A stretch of DNA of 64,000 bases, taken from positions 62,001-126,000 of the forward strand of contig JAUNJF010000006.1 in assembly GCA_030533405.1 (NCBI GenBank). The letters are read 5' to 3'. The notes beneath the pieces are model-generated. The model worked only from the letters and a program-made list of their open reading frames with translations. It ran no database searches and had not been told where the DNA came from. The position numbers were made by a program, and so were the translations under genes. Positions within the stretch are counted from its first letter, which is position 1; each line of letters starts with the position of its first letter. Positions 15,963-35,910 of the stretch are shown here, piece by piece. The DNA comes from Eubacteriales bacterium. GTDB taxonomy: Bacteria > Bacillota > Clostridia > Lachnospirales > Lachnospiraceae.

Positions 15963-18227
15963 ATGTTAATTGGAGTTGTTGTTTGTGGAATAGTAGAGGA
16001 ATATTCGATAAATCTAATCCAGAGTATTGAACATATGTCTGAAAAAAATGATGTAAAATGTGTTATTATTCCAATTAAATTTTTAGGATTAGATTATGAG
16101 AAGGAATTGAATAACAAATATGGATATTGTTATAATGCAATTGCCTCATACGGATTGTTATCATGTTTTGATGGATTGATCATCGAGACAGCATCTGTAT
16201 TGATGTATGCGGATGATGAAACCAGGAAAAAATATATTGCTATGTATCAGAATATTCCACATGTATTTATTGCATTTAATGAGGACGATTCGTCGAGTGT
16301 TTCGATTGATAATCAGGCGGGATTGGAAGAAGCATTAGAATATATGTATCAAAATGGTGCAAGGAAGTATGCTATGTTTGGTGGTACACCGAATAATATA
16401 GATTCGATTGTGAGAAAAGAGTGTTTTGAGCAATTTGTAAAGAATCATAATCTTCCATATAGTAGCAAATCCTACCAGGATGGTAATTTTTTCTTACCGT
16501 GTGAGGATGAAGCTGAGCAATTGGTATGTGATAATATGGACGCTGATGTATTTGTTTGTGCAAATGATTTTTTGGCAAGACATATTTATAGGGCGTTACG
16601 TAAAAATGGGAAAAGACCGGGACAGGATGTATCTGTGATTGGCTTTGATGATAGTCAGATTTGTACAGCGACTTATCCTGCAATTTCGTCAATACGTACA
16701 GATATTGTCGAAGTTGGTAAGGTGAGTTATCAGTTGTTGATGGATGCTATTGATAAAAAACCGGCAAAAAAGGTTGTTGTGCCATCAAAATTTATATTAA
16801 GGGATTCTATTTATCATAGAGTATATGAAAAAGAAGAACGACATGAGAACTATCAATTTAAAGATTTTCTTATGCCCAATGTTATGTATGAAAATAATCA
16901 GTATATAGAAAAAATTAGAACTGTCATATCGGAAATAACAAAAATGCTCGACAATCAAAAGTCCGTTTCATTAGATAATCTTTTGAATGATATTTATTTG
17001 AAATTAGATGAATTGTTTTCGTGTGATGGGCTTGATTTGATTGATTGGGAACGGTTTGCGAATGCTACTAATGAAAAGTATAGACAGTGGATTATGTCAT
17101 TATCAAATCCGAGCGATCAACAAAAAATCACAGATTTTTTTATCAAATTTCATGAGATGGTGATGACTGTAAATCATTATGTATCTCCGGAAAAAAACTA
17201 TGTTGATTTTATACAGAACATAGGAATGGAGCGTTTTTTTCGAGAAACAATGCAATTTGTTCGAAATGCAGAGGCTAACTATACACGTTTTATAAAAAGT
17301 GTAGGCTTTTTAGGAATACAAAATGCGTATTTATATATATATGATGAACCTCAATACTATATGCAAGGTGAACAATTTGAAGTACCTGAATTTGTGAATT
17401 TAAAAGCGGTATTAAAAGATGGTGAAGTGATGGCGATTTCTCATAATCAGCAGAGGATGAAAAGTCAGTTTGTGTTTGATAATGCGTATGTAGATTGGAA
17501 GGGCTATTCTAGACTTATGTTATTTCCGGTGTATTCAGATAATATCATATATGGCATTTTGGTATGTGATATTAAGCGAAAAGGTTTTGAACAAGCTGAC
17601 TTATTTATCAACCAGTTAGGCGCTGGCATTCGGATGATGAATTTACGAATTGAGAATAGGCGTATTGTTGATAATTATGAGGAATCCGTTCGCAAACTTA
17701 GAGAGTATAATATTACATTGGATAATATGAGTAAAACAGATTCGTTGACAGGACTGAATAATCGACGTGGTTTTTATATGCGTACGCATAAGTTACTTGA
17801 ATTGTTTCCAAATGATAGCTTGTCAGTGGTTATTGGTTATGCAGATATGAATGATCTAAAAGTTGTAAATGACAGATTTGGACATGATGATGGAGATTTT
17901 GCATTAAAATCTATAGGAGAATTACTTACAGATTATGTCACGATGCATAATGGTTTTGGCGCCAGAATTGGTGGAGATGAGTTTGCATTTGTTATTATTG
18001 TTCCTAAGGGTTCTGAACTGGAAACTTATAGGAAAGAATTGTATGATTTGTTTGATGTGTTCAATCAAAAGTGTATAAAGCCTTATAGAATCGATATTTC
18101 TATAGGTGATTATTTGTATGAAAAAGGTGATATGCTAACGCTTGATGATGCATTGCATCAAGCTGATGAACGTTTGTATTATGAGAAGAATATTCGAAAA
18201 CAAAAAAGCATATTGAAGGAACTATGA
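15963..18227 (+). CDS. Soluble sugar-sensor (LacI-type)/GGDEF diguanylate cyclase
   Basis: The 754-residue protein starts directly with a periplasmic-binding-protein-like domain of the LacI/GalR type (about residues 1-285: GVVVCGIVEEYSI.., FVCANDFLARHIY, VIGFDDSQ) but has no helix-turn-helix and no signal peptide or membrane helix. A middle region (~300-570) may be GAF-like. The C-terminal GGDEF domain (~590-750) carries TDSLTGLNNRRGF, metal-binding YADMND and an intact RIGGDEF at about 668-674. No RxxD inhibitory site lies upstream. It is probably a cytoplasmic cyclase that responds to an intracellular sugar. A TATAAT at 15915 is a candidate -10. An HD-GYP gene follows after 62 bases. A paralogue lies at 32576. 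Confidence 0.9.
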   Translation: MLIGVVVCGIVEEYSINLIQSIEHMSEKNDVKCVIIPIKFLGLDYEKELNNKYGYCYNAIASYGLLSCFDGLIIETASVLMYADDETRKKYIAMYQNIPHVFIAFNEDDSSSVSIDNQAGLEEALEYMYQNGARKYAMFGGTPNNIDSIVRKECFEQFVKNHNLPYSSKSYQDGNFFLPCEDEAEQLVCDNMDADVFVCANDFLARHIYRALRKNGKRPGQDVSVIGFDDSQICTATYPAISSIRTDIVEVGKVSYQLLMDAIDKKPAKKVVVPSKFILRDSIYHRVYEKEERHENYQFKDFLMPNVMYENNQYIEKIRTVISEITKMLDNQKSVSLDNLLNDIYLKLDELFSCDGLDLIDWERFANATNEKYRQWIMSLSNPSDQQKITDFFIKFHEMVMTVNHYVSPEKNYVDFIQNIGMERFFRETMQFVRNAEANYTRFIKSVGFLGIQNAYLYIYDEPQYYMQGEQFEVPEFVNLKAVLKDGEVMAISHNQQRMKSQFVFDNAYVDWKGYSRLMLFPVYSDNIIYGILVCDIKRKGFEQADLFINQLGAGIRMMNLRIENRRIVDNYEESVRKLREYNITLDNMSKTDSLTGLNNRRGFYMRTHKLLELFPNDSLSVVIGYADMNDLKVVNDRFGHDDGDFALKSIGELLTDYVTMHNGFGARIGGDEFAFVIIVPKGSELETYRKELYDLFDVFNQKCIKPYRIDISIGDYLYEKGDMLTLDDALHQADERLYYEKNIRKQKSILKEL

Positions 18228-18289: not shown

Positions 18290-19930
18290 GTGAATAAAAA
18301 TGGATATGAAATTAATTATGACAAGTGGGGACATGTAACGCTTGTTAGTCAGTTATTGATTGCTGGTTTTGTGTTTCTTACAGAGGTTTTGAATAATGCG
18401 CTTTTATATGTAACAAGGTCACAGGGATATGGACCAGAGACCATTGTAGGGAAGTTGATTCGATATTTGTTTTTGACGACATTGATTAATTTTGGGTTGA
18501 TTTTAATCAGTCAGTTTATCGTTCGAAAAACGAAAGATAATATGAAAAGACGTTTGATATTGATGATTGCGACAATTTTAATCTGTACGGATGTTGCATT
18601 TTCACATTATCAGTTTGCGGTTACACTGGTTATTTTTGTGATTCCAGTTATGATAAGTATTTTATATGAGGATTTTCAATTTTTGAAACAAGCATTATTT
18701 ATGAGTTTGATTGGACAAACGATTGCGGTCATAGCAAGAGCATCCGATTCTTTGTATAACAAAGATATTGGTCCAGAGGCAGCAATTGCTTATACATTTA
18801 CGATTAGCATTTTCATTTTTGCACGAATCATATTAAATACTTTGTTGGTAAGACGAGAAGAACTTGGTGAAGCTTTGGTTTCAGCCGAAAAAATGAATGC
18901 GGCAGAAGAGCGTGTGCAGTTATCTTTAAAGATGCTTGAAACTTTGGCAAGAGCATTGGATGCAAAGGATAAGTATACCAATGGTCATTCTGCTCGTGTT
19001 GCGGTGTATTCTACAAAATTAGCGAAAGAACTGAGATGGGATGATGCAGCAATTGAGAATTTGAAATTTGAGGCGTTATTACATGATATTGGTAAGATTG
19101 GGGTGCCAGATTCTATCTTAAACAAACCAGATCGATTATCTGAGACAGAGTTTAATTTAATCAAATCCCATTCCTTGATTGGTGCAGATATATTAAAGGA
19201 TATGGCTGCGCTTCCAAATTCAAAATATGTGGCAAAATATCATCATGAACGTTACGATGGAACAGGATATCCGAGTGGAATTGGTGGAGTGGATATTCCG
19301 TTGAATGCAAGGATTGTGTGTATTGCAGATGCATATGATGCAATGAGTTCGGACCGTATTTATAGAAAAGCATTGCCAAATGAGGTGATTCGTGAGGAAC
19401 TTGTGAAAGGTAGAGGTACACAGTTTGATCCAGAATTACTGGATATATTTTTAAAACTTTTTGATGAGCAGAAATTATCAGTTAGAGTGAATACCTCGCA
19501 TATGACAGAAAATAACAGTGAGCATAGATATGTGATGGATGATATTGATCATGTAATTCATAATATCACGCAGTTGGAACAAAAAAGCGATTCTGTAAAA
19601 TATTTTGATAAATTTTATATTTATATGCGAAATATTGGAATGCGTTATAATCGTTCTATTGAAGTAATGTCAATTATTTTGAAGACAAAACAAAATGATA
19701 AAACCGAGGTCGAAGAAGATGCAGCACAAGCTATGGAAACTGCAATTAAGAAAAATATTAGAGCAGTAGATGTTTATTTTAGACATTCTGTGTCTGAGCA
19801 TCTGATTATTTTTTTAGATGCAGGTGTAGAAAATATAGATGTGATAGCACAAAGAATTATGTTTGAGTTTCAAGCAACAAAATATAAAGATCAATATGAG
19901 ATATTATATAAGTTAAATGAAGATGTATAA
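18290..19930 (+). CDS. Membrane HD-GYP domain protein (c-di-GMP phosphodiesterase)
   Basis: The 546-residue protein has about six hydrophobic helices in its first ~190 residues, then a coiled linker and an HD-GYP domain. The HD part has GHSARV (~232) and LHDIGKIG (~264); the GYP part has HHERYDGTGYPSG (~317). HD-GYP enzymes hydrolyse c-di-GMP to GMP. A C-terminal region of ~140 residues is unassigned. The start is GTG at 18290, 7 bases after a GGGGG ribosome binding site. Together with the upstream GGDEF gene it forms a matched c-di-GMP synthesis/degradation pair. Confidence 0.92.
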   Translation: MNKNGYEINYDKWGHVTLVSQLLIAGFVFLTEVLNNALLYVTRSQGYGPETIVGKLIRYLFLTTLINFGLILISQFIVRKTKDNMKRRLILMIATILICTDVAFSHYQFAVTLVIFVIPVMISILYEDFQFLKQALFMSLIGQTIAVIARASDSLYNKDIGPEAAIAYTFTISIFIFARIILNTLLVRREELGEALVSAEKMNAAEERVQLSLKMLETLARALDAKDKYTNGHSARVAVYSTKLAKELRWDDAAIENLKFEALLHDIGKIGVPDSILNKPDRLSETEFNLIKSHSLIGADILKDMAALPNSKYVAKYHHERYDGTGYPSGIGGVDIPLNARIVCIADAYDAMSSDRIYRKALPNEVIREELVKGRGTQFDPELLDIFLKLFDEQKLSVRVNTSHMTENNSEHRYVMDDIDHVIHNITQLEQKSDSVKYFDKFYIYMRNIGMRYNRSIEVMSIILKTKQNDKTEVEEDAAQAMETAIKKNIRAVDVYFRHSVSEHLIIFLDAGVENIDVIAQRIMFEFQATKYKDQYEILYKLNEDV

Positions 19931-20162: not shown

Positions 20163-22124
20163 ATGAATGTGAGTGTGTATACTATGCAGGATTTATATAG
20201 TGTGAAAATGAGAGCTTCTCGTATGGTTTGTGATAAAAATGAGCATATTTCAGGTGCTGAAAAAATAATTCATGAAAATCAAATGAACAGATGTGTAGAT
20301 AATTTGATTTTCCGTGGATTTCACCACGAGAAAGGGAAAGCCGATTTTATTAATATCAAATTGCAGAAGGTGAATACGGATGAAATCGTTTATTTTGATG
20401 CGCTTCCAGTAACAAATGTGGAGGTTTCAAATTGGCAGGAAGGGTATGAGACTATTAAGCAATTTCTAAAGAAAAGTGGCGTGGTAAAATATAATGAAAT
20501 AATGGATTTTCTTCCACAGACAATGGCTATGCGTGGTGCAATGCTTCTGGATGTGAATTCTTTGATGCGATTAGAACCTGATTTGAATAGAGGAATACGA
20601 GCTACCAATATGGATCAGGAAAGAAATTCGGATTATGTAGTTTCGAATAGCAAAAATCATTATGAGGAAGCGATTGTTTTGGCTACAAAGGTTGCCAATT
20701 GTCCGGGTATAGTGGGAGAAATATGTATATCGGATGATCCCAATTATATTACTGGATATTTTGCTTCAAAGGAATTGGGGTATATTCGAATAAGTAAGTT
20801 AAAGGAGATGGGTAGTGAATTTGGTGGTAGAATCTTTCTGTTTGATGGATCTCAGTATGATTATAATGAGGCAATTAATTACTTACAGAATACATATGTA
20901 ATTGTTAAAAATATGAAACAATTTGATGCGGTGGAAAACACGAAAAGCAAGGTAGATAAGTGGAAACATTTACAAGAGCAGTTAGAGGATTTAAAGACAA
21001 ATAATCTATATAGAACAATGAAGCAATTTGAGTCTTCTCAGGGAGCTCATGTATGTTATAACGGAAGAGATATTGTTCTTATGGCTTCTAACAGTTATCT
21101 TGATATAACAGCACATGCGCACATTAAAAAGTATACAAAAGAAATAATTGATCGATATGGTTATGGAAGTGGTGGTTCAAGACTTACTACTGGAAATACT
21201 GATATACATGAATTGTTGGAAAAGAAGATTGCTGATTTTAAAAAGTGTGAATCAGCTCTTGTTTTTTCTTCAGGATATGTAGCGAATGTAGCAACTATTT
21301 CAGCACTAGTATCTGAGGGGGATGTTATTTTTAGTGATGTATTGAATCATGCCAGCATAATAGATGGATGCAGATTATCAAAAGCAAAAGTAGTATTGTA
21401 TAAGCATAATGATATGGAAGATTTTGAAAAGAAAATAAAAGAAACCTCGTTTCATCATGCTTTGGCTGTAAGTGATGCGGTGTTTAGTATGGACGGAGAT
21501 ATACTTAAGCTAAATGAGTTTGTTGAGATTTGTGAACGCTACAATATTTATTCAATGATTGACGAGGCACATGCAACGGGCGTTATCGGTCAGACTGGAC
21601 ATGGTATTGTGGAGCACTATAATACAGATAAAATGCCAGATATTATGATGGGAACCTTGAGTAAGGCGATAGGTGGCGAAGGTGGTTATGTGACTGGCAA
21701 CAGAATATTAATCGAATATTTAAAAAATAAGGCAAGAGGATTTATTTTTTCAACTTCGCTTTCGCAAGCTTCCATGGCATGCGGTATTGCGGGAATTGAG
21801 ATAATTGAGCAGGAACCTGAACGAGTTAAAAAGCTTCAACAAAATGTGAAATATTTCTGTGCATGTTTACGTCATAATGGACTCAATGTAGATTCCGAAA
21901 CAGCAATAGTGCCTATTTTGGTACATGATGAGAAAAAGGCGTTGAAACTTTCTGAATACTTGTTAGAAAAAGGATACTATATTTCTGCAATTAGATATCC
22001 CACTGTAGCTAAGAATAGTGCAAGGCTTAGAGTGGCAATTATGTCTACACATAGCAAAAAAGAACTTAAGGAAGTAGCAGGATATATATGTGAATTCCTC
22101 GGAATAGGAGAGAAAAATGGCTAA
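20163..22124 (+). CDS. bioWF: Fused 6-carboxyhexanoate-CoA ligase / 8-amino-7-oxononanoate synthase (BioW-BioF)
   Basis: The 653-residue product is the sum of two full-length enzymes. Residues ~1-255 are BioW (pimeloyl-CoA synthetase), with YSVKMRAS and HISGAEKI at the start, MRGAMLLDVNSLMRLEPD and GGRIFLFDG. Residues ~270-653 are BioF, a PLP enzyme that condenses pimeloyl-CoA with L-alanine, with SNSYLDI, GYGSGGSRLTTGN, DEAHATGV and Lys501 in GTLSKAIGG. One chain would therefore make pimeloyl-CoA and use it at once. The start is uncertain: no strong ribosome binding site is seen, and the ATG seven codons later is an alternative. It overlaps bioD by 8 bases. Confidence 0.92.
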   Translation: MNVSVYTMQDLYSVKMRASRMVCDKNEHISGAEKIIHENQMNRCVDNLIFRGFHHEKGKADFINIKLQKVNTDEIVYFDALPVTNVEVSNWQEGYETIKQFLKKSGVVKYNEIMDFLPQTMAMRGAMLLDVNSLMRLEPDLNRGIRATNMDQERNSDYVVSNSKNHYEEAIVLATKVANCPGIVGEICISDDPNYITGYFASKELGYIRISKLKEMGSEFGGRIFLFDGSQYDYNEAINYLQNTYVIVKNMKQFDAVENTKSKVDKWKHLQEQLEDLKTNNLYRTMKQFESSQGAHVCYNGRDIVLMASNSYLDITAHAHIKKYTKEIIDRYGYGSGGSRLTTGNTDIHELLEKKIADFKKCESALVFSSGYVANVATISALVSEGDVIFSDVLNHASIIDGCRLSKAKVVLYKHNDMEDFEKKIKETSFHHALAVSDAVFSMDGDILKLNEFVEICERYNIYSMIDEAHATGVIGQTGHGIVEHYNTDKMPDIMMGTLSKAIGGEGGYVTGNRILIEYLKNKARGFIFSTSLSQASMACGIAGIEIIEQEPERVKKLQQNVKYFCACLRHNGLNVDSETAIVPILVHDEKKALKLSEYLLEKGYYISAIRYPTVAKNSARLRVAIMSTHSKKELKEVAGYICEFLGIGEKNG

Positions 22125-32575: not shown

Positions 32576-34495
32576 ATGGCAAAAAAGAGGGTTGCAGTTT
32601 TTGGAAATGCATGGGGATATGAATTTTTTCAGCTGATTATGCGAGGTGTTCAAAAATACGCCAAAGAACATACAGTAGATGTGGATTTTTTTGTAAATTA
32701 TTCTTCAGAGCATGTATCAGAAAGTATCAAAATTGGAGAAATGAATCTGTATCGATTGCCAGACTTGAATTGTTATGATGGTGTAATCGTAATGGCGAAT
32801 TCTATTAATGTGCAAGCTGAAAGGGATTTTTTACAAGAAGAATTGCGTAAGGCAAAGATTCCGTGTGTTTGTTTGGAATATGAGCTTGAAGGATTGAATT
32901 TTATGGGCTCGGATAATTATTCAGGTATGTATGAACTTGCACAACATGTTTTTGATGTACATGGCGCTAGAAATATTTTGTATATTGGAGGTCCAAAGGA
33001 TAATACAGAAGCACAACAGAGACGGCAAGCAGTTATAGATGTTGCAAAAGAATACGGAGTTCCTGTTACAGATGAGAATTTTATTTATGGTGATTGGTCG
33101 TTTTATTTTGGCGGTGCTTATGTAATACAATACCTTGAAAAAAATGGCAAATTGCCCGATGCAATTATTTGTGCCAATGATGTTATGGCAATTGGTATTT
33201 GTGAAATGTTACCAACAATCGGATATAAGGCAGGAATAGATGTTGCTGTGACCGGATTTGACGGATTGCGTCAAGGTGCGATGTATTATCCATCTATCAC
33301 ATCTGTTGGACGCAATTGGAATTCTATGGGTTATGTTGCAATGCAACAGATTCTCGAGGAAAAACCTGCTAAAACGCCGAAGCGAATTGAACTAAAATCC
33401 AGTCTTTCACTTGGAGAAAGTTGTGGATGCGAATTATGTAAAGAGAAGTTAGAATTACGACGCTTAGGTGATAAGGAACAGGGAAAAAAGTATGTAGGGA
33501 ATGTGGAATTAGATATTCACATGCGAATGATGTATGGTGTGATGCATAATTGCTCTGAATTGCATGAATTGCATGAAAAGTTGTCTCCGTTTATTCGAAA
33601 TGAGGGACATTATTATGAATCGGATGCATTTTTCTTATGCTTGGATCCGAAATTTTTCTTACCCCAAATGGAAGATGAAGAGTTATTAAAAACAGTTGGA
33701 TATCCTGAAAAAATGGTAGTTGCAACAGGGGTGTATGAAGGTAATATAATGCCAGTTGAAGAAATAAGTTCAGTAGATATAGTACCCAGCTATGTAAGAC
33801 AATCAGAAAAGGAAAATATTATGTTAGTTGTTTCCTTATTCTTGGAGGAAAAGACGATAGGATATGTTGCAATGAGAGCAGATGAGATGCAATTTCAGGA
33901 GATGGCATTGTATTTGTGGTCTAGACATATCACACAGAATTTGGAGCAAATACGTCAAAATATTCAGATTAATGCTTTGACAGCGCAGTTAATGCTTCTT
34001 TCTACAACAGATGGAATGACGGGTCTTTATAATCGACGTGGATATACAAAGATTGTACAACCGTATTATGAACAAAATATCGAGCAGGATAATAATATGG
34101 CGTTTATCATGTGTGATATCGATGATATGAAGACAATAAATGATGAGCATGGTCATTTATTTGGCGATTTGGCTATCTGTACATTGGCAAATGCAATTAA
34201 GGAAAGTATTCCAGCGCAATGGTATGGTTGTCGATATGGTGGGGATGAATTTTTGATTATTGGTACGTGTAATCAGGAAGATGAGATACAACATATTGTT
34301 ACGTTGATTGAGGAGAATATAAAGAAACAGGTTGCAGTCTCTAAAATGCCAGTTGAACTTGTAGCAAGTATCGGTGGTATTATGATTGATGCGAATAAGA
34401 AGTTTTCGTTAGAAGCTGCTGTGAAGTATGCAGATGATAGAATGTATGAAATAAAAAGTGCACATAAAGCACGATATGGTGGGCAGATTCGATAG
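32576..34495 (+). CDS. Soluble sugar-sensor (LacI-type)/GGDEF diguanylate cyclase, second copy
   Basis: The 639-residue protein is built like the one at 15963. A LacI/GalR-type ligand-binding domain (~1-285: VAVFGNAWGYEFF, ICANDVMAIG, AVTGFDG, SITSVG) has no helix-turn-helix or membrane segment. A short Cys-containing junction (ESCGCELC) follows, then a middle region and a GGDEF domain (~477-639) with TDGMTGLYNRRGY, CDIDDMK and CRYGGDEF (~552-559). No RxxD I-site is seen. It is probably a cytoplasmic cyclase sensing a sugar or related ligand. The VirD4-like gene follows after 33 bases and may be co-transcribed. Confidence 0.9.
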   Translation: MAKKRVAVFGNAWGYEFFQLIMRGVQKYAKEHTVDVDFFVNYSSEHVSESIKIGEMNLYRLPDLNCYDGVIVMANSINVQAERDFLQEELRKAKIPCVCLEYELEGLNFMGSDNYSGMYELAQHVFDVHGARNILYIGGPKDNTEAQQRRQAVIDVAKEYGVPVTDENFIYGDWSFYFGGAYVIQYLEKNGKLPDAIICANDVMAIGICEMLPTIGYKAGIDVAVTGFDGLRQGAMYYPSITSVGRNWNSMGYVAMQQILEEKPAKTPKRIELKSSLSLGESCGCELCKEKLELRRLGDKEQGKKYVGNVELDIHMRMMYGVMHNCSELHELHEKLSPFIRNEGHYYESDAFFLCLDPKFFLPQMEDEELLKTVGYPEKMVVATGVYEGNIMPVEEISSVDIVPSYVRQSEKENIMLVVSLFLEEKTIGYVAMRADEMQFQEMALYLWSRHITQNLEQIRQNIQINALTAQLMLLSTTDGMTGLYNRRGYTKIVQPYYEQNIEQDNNMAFIMCDIDDMKTINDEHGHLFGDLAICTLANAIKESIPAQWYGCRYGGDEFLIIGTCNQEDEIQHIVTLIEENIKKQVAVSKMPVELVASIGGIMIDANKKFSLEAAVKYADDRMYEIKSAHKARYGGQIR

Positions 34496-34528
34496 ATGCT
34501 CTGAAGTTAAAACGATGGAGGATTAACA

Positions 34529-35851
34529 ATGGGTATAATAGATCATTTTAAAGGAATGGACATGGACTTTTCGAGTAAATGTCGTCAAGTGGATGAGTTA
34601 AAGATGGAATGTGCTAGAAGTAATCGTGGAACAACCGCATTTTCCAGTCTTTTATCTATGAGTAGAGATTTTGATCAGACAAGACGTAATAATAATATGT
34701 TGGTGTTTGATGAAAAGGAAAGTAATTTTGATTTGGTATTGGATAATTTAAAGGACGATAACTGTAATTATGTTGTTGTTGATTTTGATGGCGCGTATTA
34801 TCAGGAAATGGCAAATGATTTTGCTATGAGAGGATTTGCTGTCAAAAAAATTAATTTGATGGATGTTGAAAACAGTGATGGATACAATCCGTTTTCTTAT
34901 ACGCAGGATGAAATTGATGTTGATATTTTAGTGCAGTGTATTGTTGCGAATACCAATTCCAGTTATTATATGCGTGCATCCATAGGGGAACGTATTATCA
35001 TCAATAATTTAGAAAAGACATTTTTAAAGATATTGATTTCCTGTTATATGAAATATGGAACCTCTAAGACTATGAATGCGGCAGTGAATTTATTGAGTGG
35101 AGAGGATAGAGAGGTTAAATTAGATCGTTTGTTTTCCGGTATGTTCCCGCAGGGACCGAATGAGATGGAGTGCAATCGTTATAAGGTGTTTAAACAGGAA
35201 GCAGGGGATCGTTTTTCTGATATTGTAAGTTCCTGCGCAGATCGTATTGAGATATTCAAAGAAGATCGTATGATTGCATTGGCAAAGAAAGAACCATTAC
35301 AGTTTGAACATTTATATCTTGGAAAGCAGGTATTATTTATTATGATACCATCTAACATGAGGCAAGCAGAGTTATTAACTTCTGTAATTTTGTCACAAAT
35401 TTGTAATATGTTATGTAATGAGTCTCGTCGTAATAACAAAGATCGTACGGTGATGATGTACTTTAATTACTTTGCTGATTTGGGTATGGTTGTAGACTTA
35501 GAACGTTTGATATCACAATTTCCACATTTTAACCTGGGATGTATGCTTCATGTGAATAGTTTTGCGAAACTCGGTCAAATCTATAAAGATTGGGAAGTGA
35601 TATTGGAAGCCTGTGATTCCATGGTGTATTTGGGATTGAATGATGATCCAACACATCAGTATGTATTAGAACATGCAGATTCTGTTATGATTCGTAAAAA
35701 GAGAATGATGGGGAAAGAGATGTATGTTTCTGCTCAATTAAAAATAGATGAGATTAGAGATATGGATGCAAATGATTGTATTGCGGTTGTAAAAGGAATA
35801 GGAACATTCTTGACACCGAGATGTGGAAGATGGATTGATTTAGATAATTGA
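34529..35851 (+). CDS. VirD4/TraG-like protein with degenerate nucleotide-binding motifs
   Basis: The 440-residue protein lines up with the ATPase domain of type IV coupling proteins. NNNMLVFD..CNYVVVDFDGAYYQ matches the strand-P-loop-strand and DPKG region, and INLMDVENSDGYNPFSY matches the usual GY.V..NL..P..S..YNPF segment. The later FNYFADLGMVVDLERLISQ, the Q-loop region and YLGLNDDPTHQYV match the DEFANIG motif and what follows it. The Walker A GxGKT is replaced by EKESN, DPKG by DFDG and the Walker B DE by NY, so ATP hydrolysis looks lost. No N-terminal membrane helices and no conjugation genes are present. A GGAGG ribosome binding site lies 8 bases upstream. Function unknown; a structural or regulatory role is inferred. 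Confidence 0.7.
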   Translation: MGIIDHFKGMDMDFSSKCRQVDELKMECARSNRGTTAFSSLLSMSRDFDQTRRNNNMLVFDEKESNFDLVLDNLKDDNCNYVVVDFDGAYYQEMANDFAMRGFAVKKINLMDVENSDGYNPFSYTQDEIDVDILVQCIVANTNSSYYMRASIGERIIINNLEKTFLKILISCYMKYGTSKTMNAAVNLLSGEDREVKLDRLFSGMFPQGPNEMECNRYKVFKQEAGDRFSDIVSSCADRIEIFKEDRMIALAKKEPLQFEHLYLGKQVLFIMIPSNMRQAELLTSVILSQICNMLCNESRRNNKDRTVMMYFNYFADLGMVVDLERLISQFPHFNLGCMLHVNSFAKLGQIYKDWEVILEACDSMVYLGLNDDPTHQYVLEHADSVMIRKKRMMGKEMYVSAQLKIDEIRDMDANDCIAVVKGIGTFLTPRCGRWIDLDN

Positions 35852-35854
35852 TAA

Positions 35855-35910
35855 CAAATAAAGCGAGCTATTCAACTGGGATTAACCAGTGGATAAGCTC
35901 GCTTTATTTG
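35855..35910 (+). terminator. Hairpin terminator overlapping the end of the opposing small gene
   Basis: A perfect 15-bp stem (CAAATAAAGCGAGCT with AGCTCGCTTTATTTG) encloses a smaller ACTGG/CCAGT hairpin. It begins 4 bases after the VirD4-like stop codon and overlaps the last codons of the minus-strand 65-residue gene. T runs are interrupted (TTTATTTG), so its strength is uncertain; it could act on either strand. Confidence 0.65.

Follow-up and report, generated by a model that had tools for sequence, protein, structure and literature searches.

A coupling-protein relative without its ATP site or membrane anchor, retained in three genomes of one genus

The locus and its product

The window, as we call the whole stretch of DNA analysed here, comprises 64,000 nucleotides of contig JAUNJF010000006.1 from a Lachnospiraceae genome (Eubacteriales bacterium). 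It contains the gene in question, the pseudo-coupling-protein gene, which has an ATG start and an intact frame (Table 1). This open reading frame (ORF) had been singled out from its letters as a VirD4/TraG-like protein without ATP-binding motifs or N-terminal membrane helices, preceded by a good ribosome binding site and, at a gap of 33 bases, by a GGDEF gene, with no relaxase or conjugation gene near. The frame, the ribosome site (GGAGG) and the gap are as described, and the kinship is confirmed by family matches: PF02534 is matched at 3.9e-12 (46.2 bits, the cut-off being 20.1), well above chance, and NF045973, the CD1115 VirD4-like family, at 5.6e-42 along residues 48-424 (144 bits, short of the cut-off of 250). 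Judged by sequence, its relationship to VirD4/TraG proteins is genuine but distant. When solved structures were searched with the single sequence, nothing significant was returned (best E 1.4).

Table 1. Features of the pseudo-coupling-protein locus, in window coordinates
Feature	Position	Strand	Basis
LacI-type sensor/GGDEF gene; neighbour only, pairing not conserved	32576..34495	+	Pfam; genome search
ATGGAGG ribosome binding site, also before both orthologues	34515..34521	+	sequence
Pseudo-coupling-protein gene, 440 amino acids (aa)	34529..35851	+	family matches; orthologues L004, L005
FDEKESN, residues 60-66, site of lost Walker A P-loop	34706..34726	+	alignment
DFDG replacing DPKG, residues 85-88, identical in 3/3 orthologues	34781..34792	+	alignment
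SDGYNPF, residues 116-122, motif kept; N120 identical in 27/27 rows	34874..34894	+	alignment
All-alpha domain equivalent, residues 126-262	34904..35314	+	helices predicted alike from the three orthologues alone
NYFADLG replacing DEFANIG (Walker B region), residues 313-319	35465..35485	+	alignment
FPHFN replacing RSRE arginine segment, residues 331-335	35519..35533	+	alignment
Inverted repeat AATAAAGCGAGCT...AGCTCGCTTTATT	35857..35908	.	by eye; consensus scan did not list it
Small convergent gene, 65 aa	35882..36079	-	sequence; by reading also after the G016 orthologue

The motifs of the ATP site were compared in an alignment of 33 proteins, 29 rows of which cover the P-loop and 31 Walker B. 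The K-[ST] pair of the P-loop is present in all 26 ordinary rows (22 read GxGK[ST]; the four variants are L021, L023, L041 and L042) and in none of the three orthologues, namely the window copy and the two copies described below, which read EKES, NKEH and EKKN and are two residues shorter there. The DxK motif is likewise found in 26/26 ordinary rows and is DFDG in all three. At Walker B, where L003 is gapped and L042, aligned there through a recombinase part, was not counted, the pair D[ED] occurs in 28/28 ordinary rows, and the orthologues read NY, NY and DI, the aspartate surviving in one and the catalytic acid in none. The RSRE-like arginine segment has become FPHF, FHHY or FCQY, a point absent from the original prediction. 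Retained are SDGYNPF and a CDxxVYxG-like segment, and D85 and N120 are the sole invariant columns across the 27 rows of the tree alignment (below). Hydropathy revealed no N-terminal hydrophobic segment; in the G020 copy one stretch towards the C-terminus reaches 1.83, at a place where the model of the window copy has strands.

The predicted structure has the coupling-protein fold with its all-alpha domain, and a fold search with it returned coupling proteins, with TrwB (1e9s) and Cag-beta (8dol) at 13% identity. This prediction used an alignment that included 24 other coupling proteins (27 rows).

Distribution, descent and selection

A search of 60 genomes found two full-length copies in the same genus, in G016 (L004, 61% identity) and G020 (L005, 58%), with the next-best matches at 21-29%. 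The three frames are all intact, are 57-69% identical in pairs and score 144.2, 139.7 and 136.4 bits against NF045973, all below its curated cut-off. A profile of the three matched 3 of 26 genomes of the genus at 1e-40. Family-wide (397 sampled genomes, 1e-50) and order-wide (392 genomes, 1e-40) the window's own genome alone matched; in some genomes of these wider searches only the best few candidates were scored, and a miss is possible. A contig scan returned CAMWYJ010000001 (from an uncultured Clostridium sp. metagenome-assembled genome, MAG) and JAQXLK010000140 (a Clostridiales bacterium MAG), which we take to be the same two orthologues. Matches to 584 plasmid and 24 phage records, compared by identity alone, all fell below 60%, the ten plasmid and ten phage matches listed being at about 23-27%, and two viral contigs matched at 27-28%. 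The conserved protein has so far been seen in part of one genus.

In a coupling-protein tree of 27 of the 33 proteins (L002, L003, L006, L013, L029 and L042 were left out of it and of alignment A2 as fragments, interrupted or fused), a branch of 3.4 changes per site leads to a single clade of the three orthologues (support 100/100), and the pseudo-coupling-protein is 16-25% identical to the 24 compared rows. Most simply, the ATP site and the anchor were lost once, before the three species split. An ArgH tree of 25 genomes (ArgH is present in 25 of the 26 of the genus) places the three carriers together with G022 in a clade (97/94); the carriers alone form one side of a branch with support of just 67/6.

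The gene order in the window is GGDEF, pseudo-coupling-protein, small convergent gene, argH, nadB, nadC; that of G020 runs argD, LUD gene, LytTR gene, 241-aa ORF, pseudo-coupling-protein, argH, nadB, nadC; and in G016 it is LUD gene, pseudo-coupling-protein, small convergent gene, cysS. LUD and LytTR were named by Pfam and the remaining neighbours by reading, the 241-aa ORF having no Pfam match. Since the G020 arrangement bridges the other two, the orders fit vertical inheritance with rearrangements. No remnant of the gene beyond the two carriers was found in the argH flanks of 25 loci (up to 1.5 kb, some almost without upstream sequence; best E 0.43), and in G022 the LUD gene that adjoins the G016 copy has a different reading frame after it, which fills the roughly 250 bases left to the end of the contig. 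The inverted repeat downstream of the window copy is possibly a two-way terminator; its arms change together in G016 (GAGTT...AACTC).

As originally claimed, no conjugation locus is apparent: PF03432, the one relaxase family searched, has three matches in the whole genome and none on the window's contig, the window ORFs (at least 100 aa at 20000-50000, at least 170 aa elsewhere) read as housekeeping genes, and the neighbours at all three loci read as housekeeping or regulatory genes. A 653-aa frame at window 20163-22124 resembles, by reading, a BioW-BioF fusion heading biotin genes.

For the three pairs of orthologues, the NG86 method gave 0.20-0.30 nonsynonymous (dN) and 1.4-2.0 synonymous (dS) changes per site, hence dN/dS of 0.145-0.151, a rough ratio because dS is near saturation. 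When the G016 copy was evolved neutrally by 1.4 changes per site (HKY-type model, kappa 3 by our choice), each of 100 runs produced at least 22 stops. For comparison, argH has a dN of 0.04-0.07 in the same species pairs, and nadB and nadC have 0.16 and 0.08 in the G000-G020 pair, with some dS values for these three genes saturated. The pseudo-coupling-protein gene therefore evolves faster than argH, nadB and nadC, yet is clearly constrained. These computations show that the protein descends from coupling proteins, that its ATP site and membrane anchor are lost in three species, and that purifying selection has acted since.

Possible functions of the protein

We think it probable that one clade of the genus has domesticated the cytosolic body of a type IV coupling protein, which now serves, in soluble form, in a binding role. 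Soluble and without an ATP site, it can hardly be a transfer motor; the motor parts are lost, yet the gene is intact in three species, so selection seems to preserve it for another job. In coupling proteins the all-alpha domain lies on the cytoplasmic side and contributes to substrate docking. In the window copy it is predicted to be folded and is 58-63% identical to the orthologues, and thus it probably binds one specific partner, for which the dead nucleotide-binding core would be a rigid platform. The protein would then work by binding and not by ATP-driven DNA pumping. Pseudo-enzymes often become regulators. The regulatory or scaffold role of the original prediction may apply here. In G016 and G020 the gene would be expressed from its own promoter; in the window's species it would share a transcript with the GGDEF gene. 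According to passages of PMC7431656, TrwB and a chimera no longer support transfer when the Walker A lysine is changed, and several coupling proteins are inactive once their membrane domain is removed, although TcpA without it kept some transfer. The titles and abstract openings returned by a literature search describe no stand-alone coupling protein kept by selection after motor loss, and the relevant passages of PMC12857230 and PMC4158269 name no Walker-less one. If confirmed, a binding role would mean that a host can recruit parts of a conjugation machine for binding alone, and the protein is small and testable enough for asking what such a motorless body binds.

Several points weigh against this interpretation. 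The carriers are three genomes, two of them MAGs, and no neighbour is conserved at all three loci. The three-orthologue alignment alone gave a poor fold (predicted local distance difference test score, pLDDT, 41.5), and the evidence for the fold is therefore the 27-row alignment together with sequence homology. The dN/dS ratio is rough, and with a dN about 4-5 times that of argH the constraint is moderate. A binding partner is something we infer, nucleotide may be bound through a non-standard site, and the all-alpha domain has diverged from other coupling proteins only slightly more (14-23% identity) than the core's second half (15-27%), so that its divergence points but weakly to a new partner.

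Of the other functions considered, a decoy against conjugation is unlikely but survives best. Here the dead, soluble protein would bind relaxase complexes, or mix into the coupling-protein hexamers of resident elements, and lower export. PMC5696584 names coupling proteins as the targets of the fertility-inhibition proteins PifC and Osa, and a chimeric coupling protein showed negative dominance in passages of PMC7431656, although that chimera had a membrane domain. CD1115-type proteins over the cut-off occur in 3/3 carriers against 9/23 other genomes of the genus (12/26 in all), and none at 1e-30 is present in G022, the sole member of the ArgH clade without the gene. The enrichment is not significant (Fisher one-sided p 0.085) and is suggestive only; moreover, a group II intron interrupts the match in G000, and that in G016 is a short type without a transmembrane segment (TM-less). 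Close mimicry was not seen either, the all-alpha domain being at most 23% identical to any of the 24 compared rows. The narrower proposal, that a catalytically dead coupling protein, domesticated on the chromosome, is a dominant-negative decoy capturing transfer intermediates or coupling-protein subunits of resident elements, seems slightly less likely again. If true, it would mean that the host lineage controls the horizontal export of DNA.

A nucleotide-binding switch with an unusual site appears quite improbable. In its favour, D85 (of DPKG) and N120 persist and all three orthologues have DFDG. Both residues could be structural, however, and the protein lacks the P-loop lysine and threonine as well as the catalytic acid.

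It is very improbable that the protein is a regulatory partner, as cyclic di-GMP (c-di-GMP) effector or scaffold, of the diguanylate cyclase encoded just upstream on the same strand, whose GGDEF motif is intact. Conserved pairing, as expected of a c-di-GMP effector, was not found: the window's GGDEF protein has no match in G016 or G020 at E<=1e-60 (five further relatives at 1e-60 are in the window's own genome), and the gene upstream is the LUD-domain gene in G016 and the 241-aa ORF in G020. Before the start codon, G016 and G020 share TTGACTTTAT, AATATTGCATAxTAT and ATGGAGG; of these the window leader has ATGGAGG in common with them, and otherwise the end of the GGDEF gene stands in place of the promoter-like element. 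This suggests, from the leader sequences, a breakpoint in the 5' leader at which a rearrangement put the gene behind the GGDEF gene, which would make the pairing specific to the window's lineage. We therefore rejected it as a key to function. Elsewhere in the window, a second LacI-type sensor/GGDEF gene (15963-18227) precedes what, by reading, looks like an HD-GYP gene (18290-19930).

A decaying, functionless relic of a lost conjugative element, for which the dead motifs, the absence of conjugation genes nearby and the patchy presence (3/26 genomes) speak, is the least credible alternative and was rejected on the three intact, stop-free frames, their dN/dS, the stop-rich neutral simulation and the same losses in all three orthologues.

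Domestication for a binding role thus remains our preferred explanation. The original prediction of an intact, domesticated pseudo-ATPase was to be given up if a fold search found no coupling protein or if orthologues had intact Walker motifs. The fold search returned coupling proteins and both orthologues carry the same dead motifs, so this part is supported; the hinted link to the GGDEF gene is not.

Comparison with related proteins and known systems

An origin from TM-less VirD4-like ATPases of the same genus was not supported, the two falling in separate clades. Two divergent CD1115 matches considered as bridging forms, in G008 and G017, both have P-loops (GGAGSGKS and GGPGSCKT) and lie near genes reading like relaxases of mobile elements. 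The TM-less ATPase genes adjoin a ClpP-like protease gene in three of four loci (L017:846-2688, L019:1420-3453 and L028:847-2697), which may be an odd two-gene set; the fourth (L020:1441-2751) has no ClpP ORF of at least 150 aa within its 4-kb locus. On contig C5 of the window's own genome (L037:5747-10330), a group II intron carrying a reverse transcriptase interrupts the coupling-protein gene of what reads like a conjugative element; two parts of the intron match Rfam. An IMG/VR contig (L042:4689-7346) encodes an 886-aa frame in which the first part of a coupling protein is joined to a serine recombinase (Pfam T4SS-DNA_transf, Resolvase and Recombinase), possibly an element inserted in frame.

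Against PifC and Osa, whose sequences were not compared, the likeness is that of a coupling protein as target, and holds under the proposed decoy alone (PMC5696584). As a type IV coupling protein (VirD4/TraG/TrwB), the pseudo-coupling-protein shows the core homology and, in its predicted structure, the fold with the all-alpha domain; it has neither a nucleotide-binding domain with Walker A and B nor the N-terminal transmembrane domain of most members, and, by the PF03432 search of the contig and a reading of its neighbours, it is not encoded with relaxase or secretion genes. It is distant from Cag-beta and from TrwB of plasmid R388, which has Walker motifs and a transfer role (passages of PMC7431656). 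The TM-less ATPases (L017, L019, L020 and L028) resemble it in length (412-436 aa) and in having no membrane segment by hydropathy, but they have an intact P-loop and form a separate clade (100/99). With the CD1115-family VirD4-like proteins it shares the homology over residues 48-424 and the NNN, SDGYNPF and CDxxxYxG segments; unlike them, it has no P-loop, DxK, catalytic acid or N-terminal membrane segment, and it lies outside a conjugation locus.
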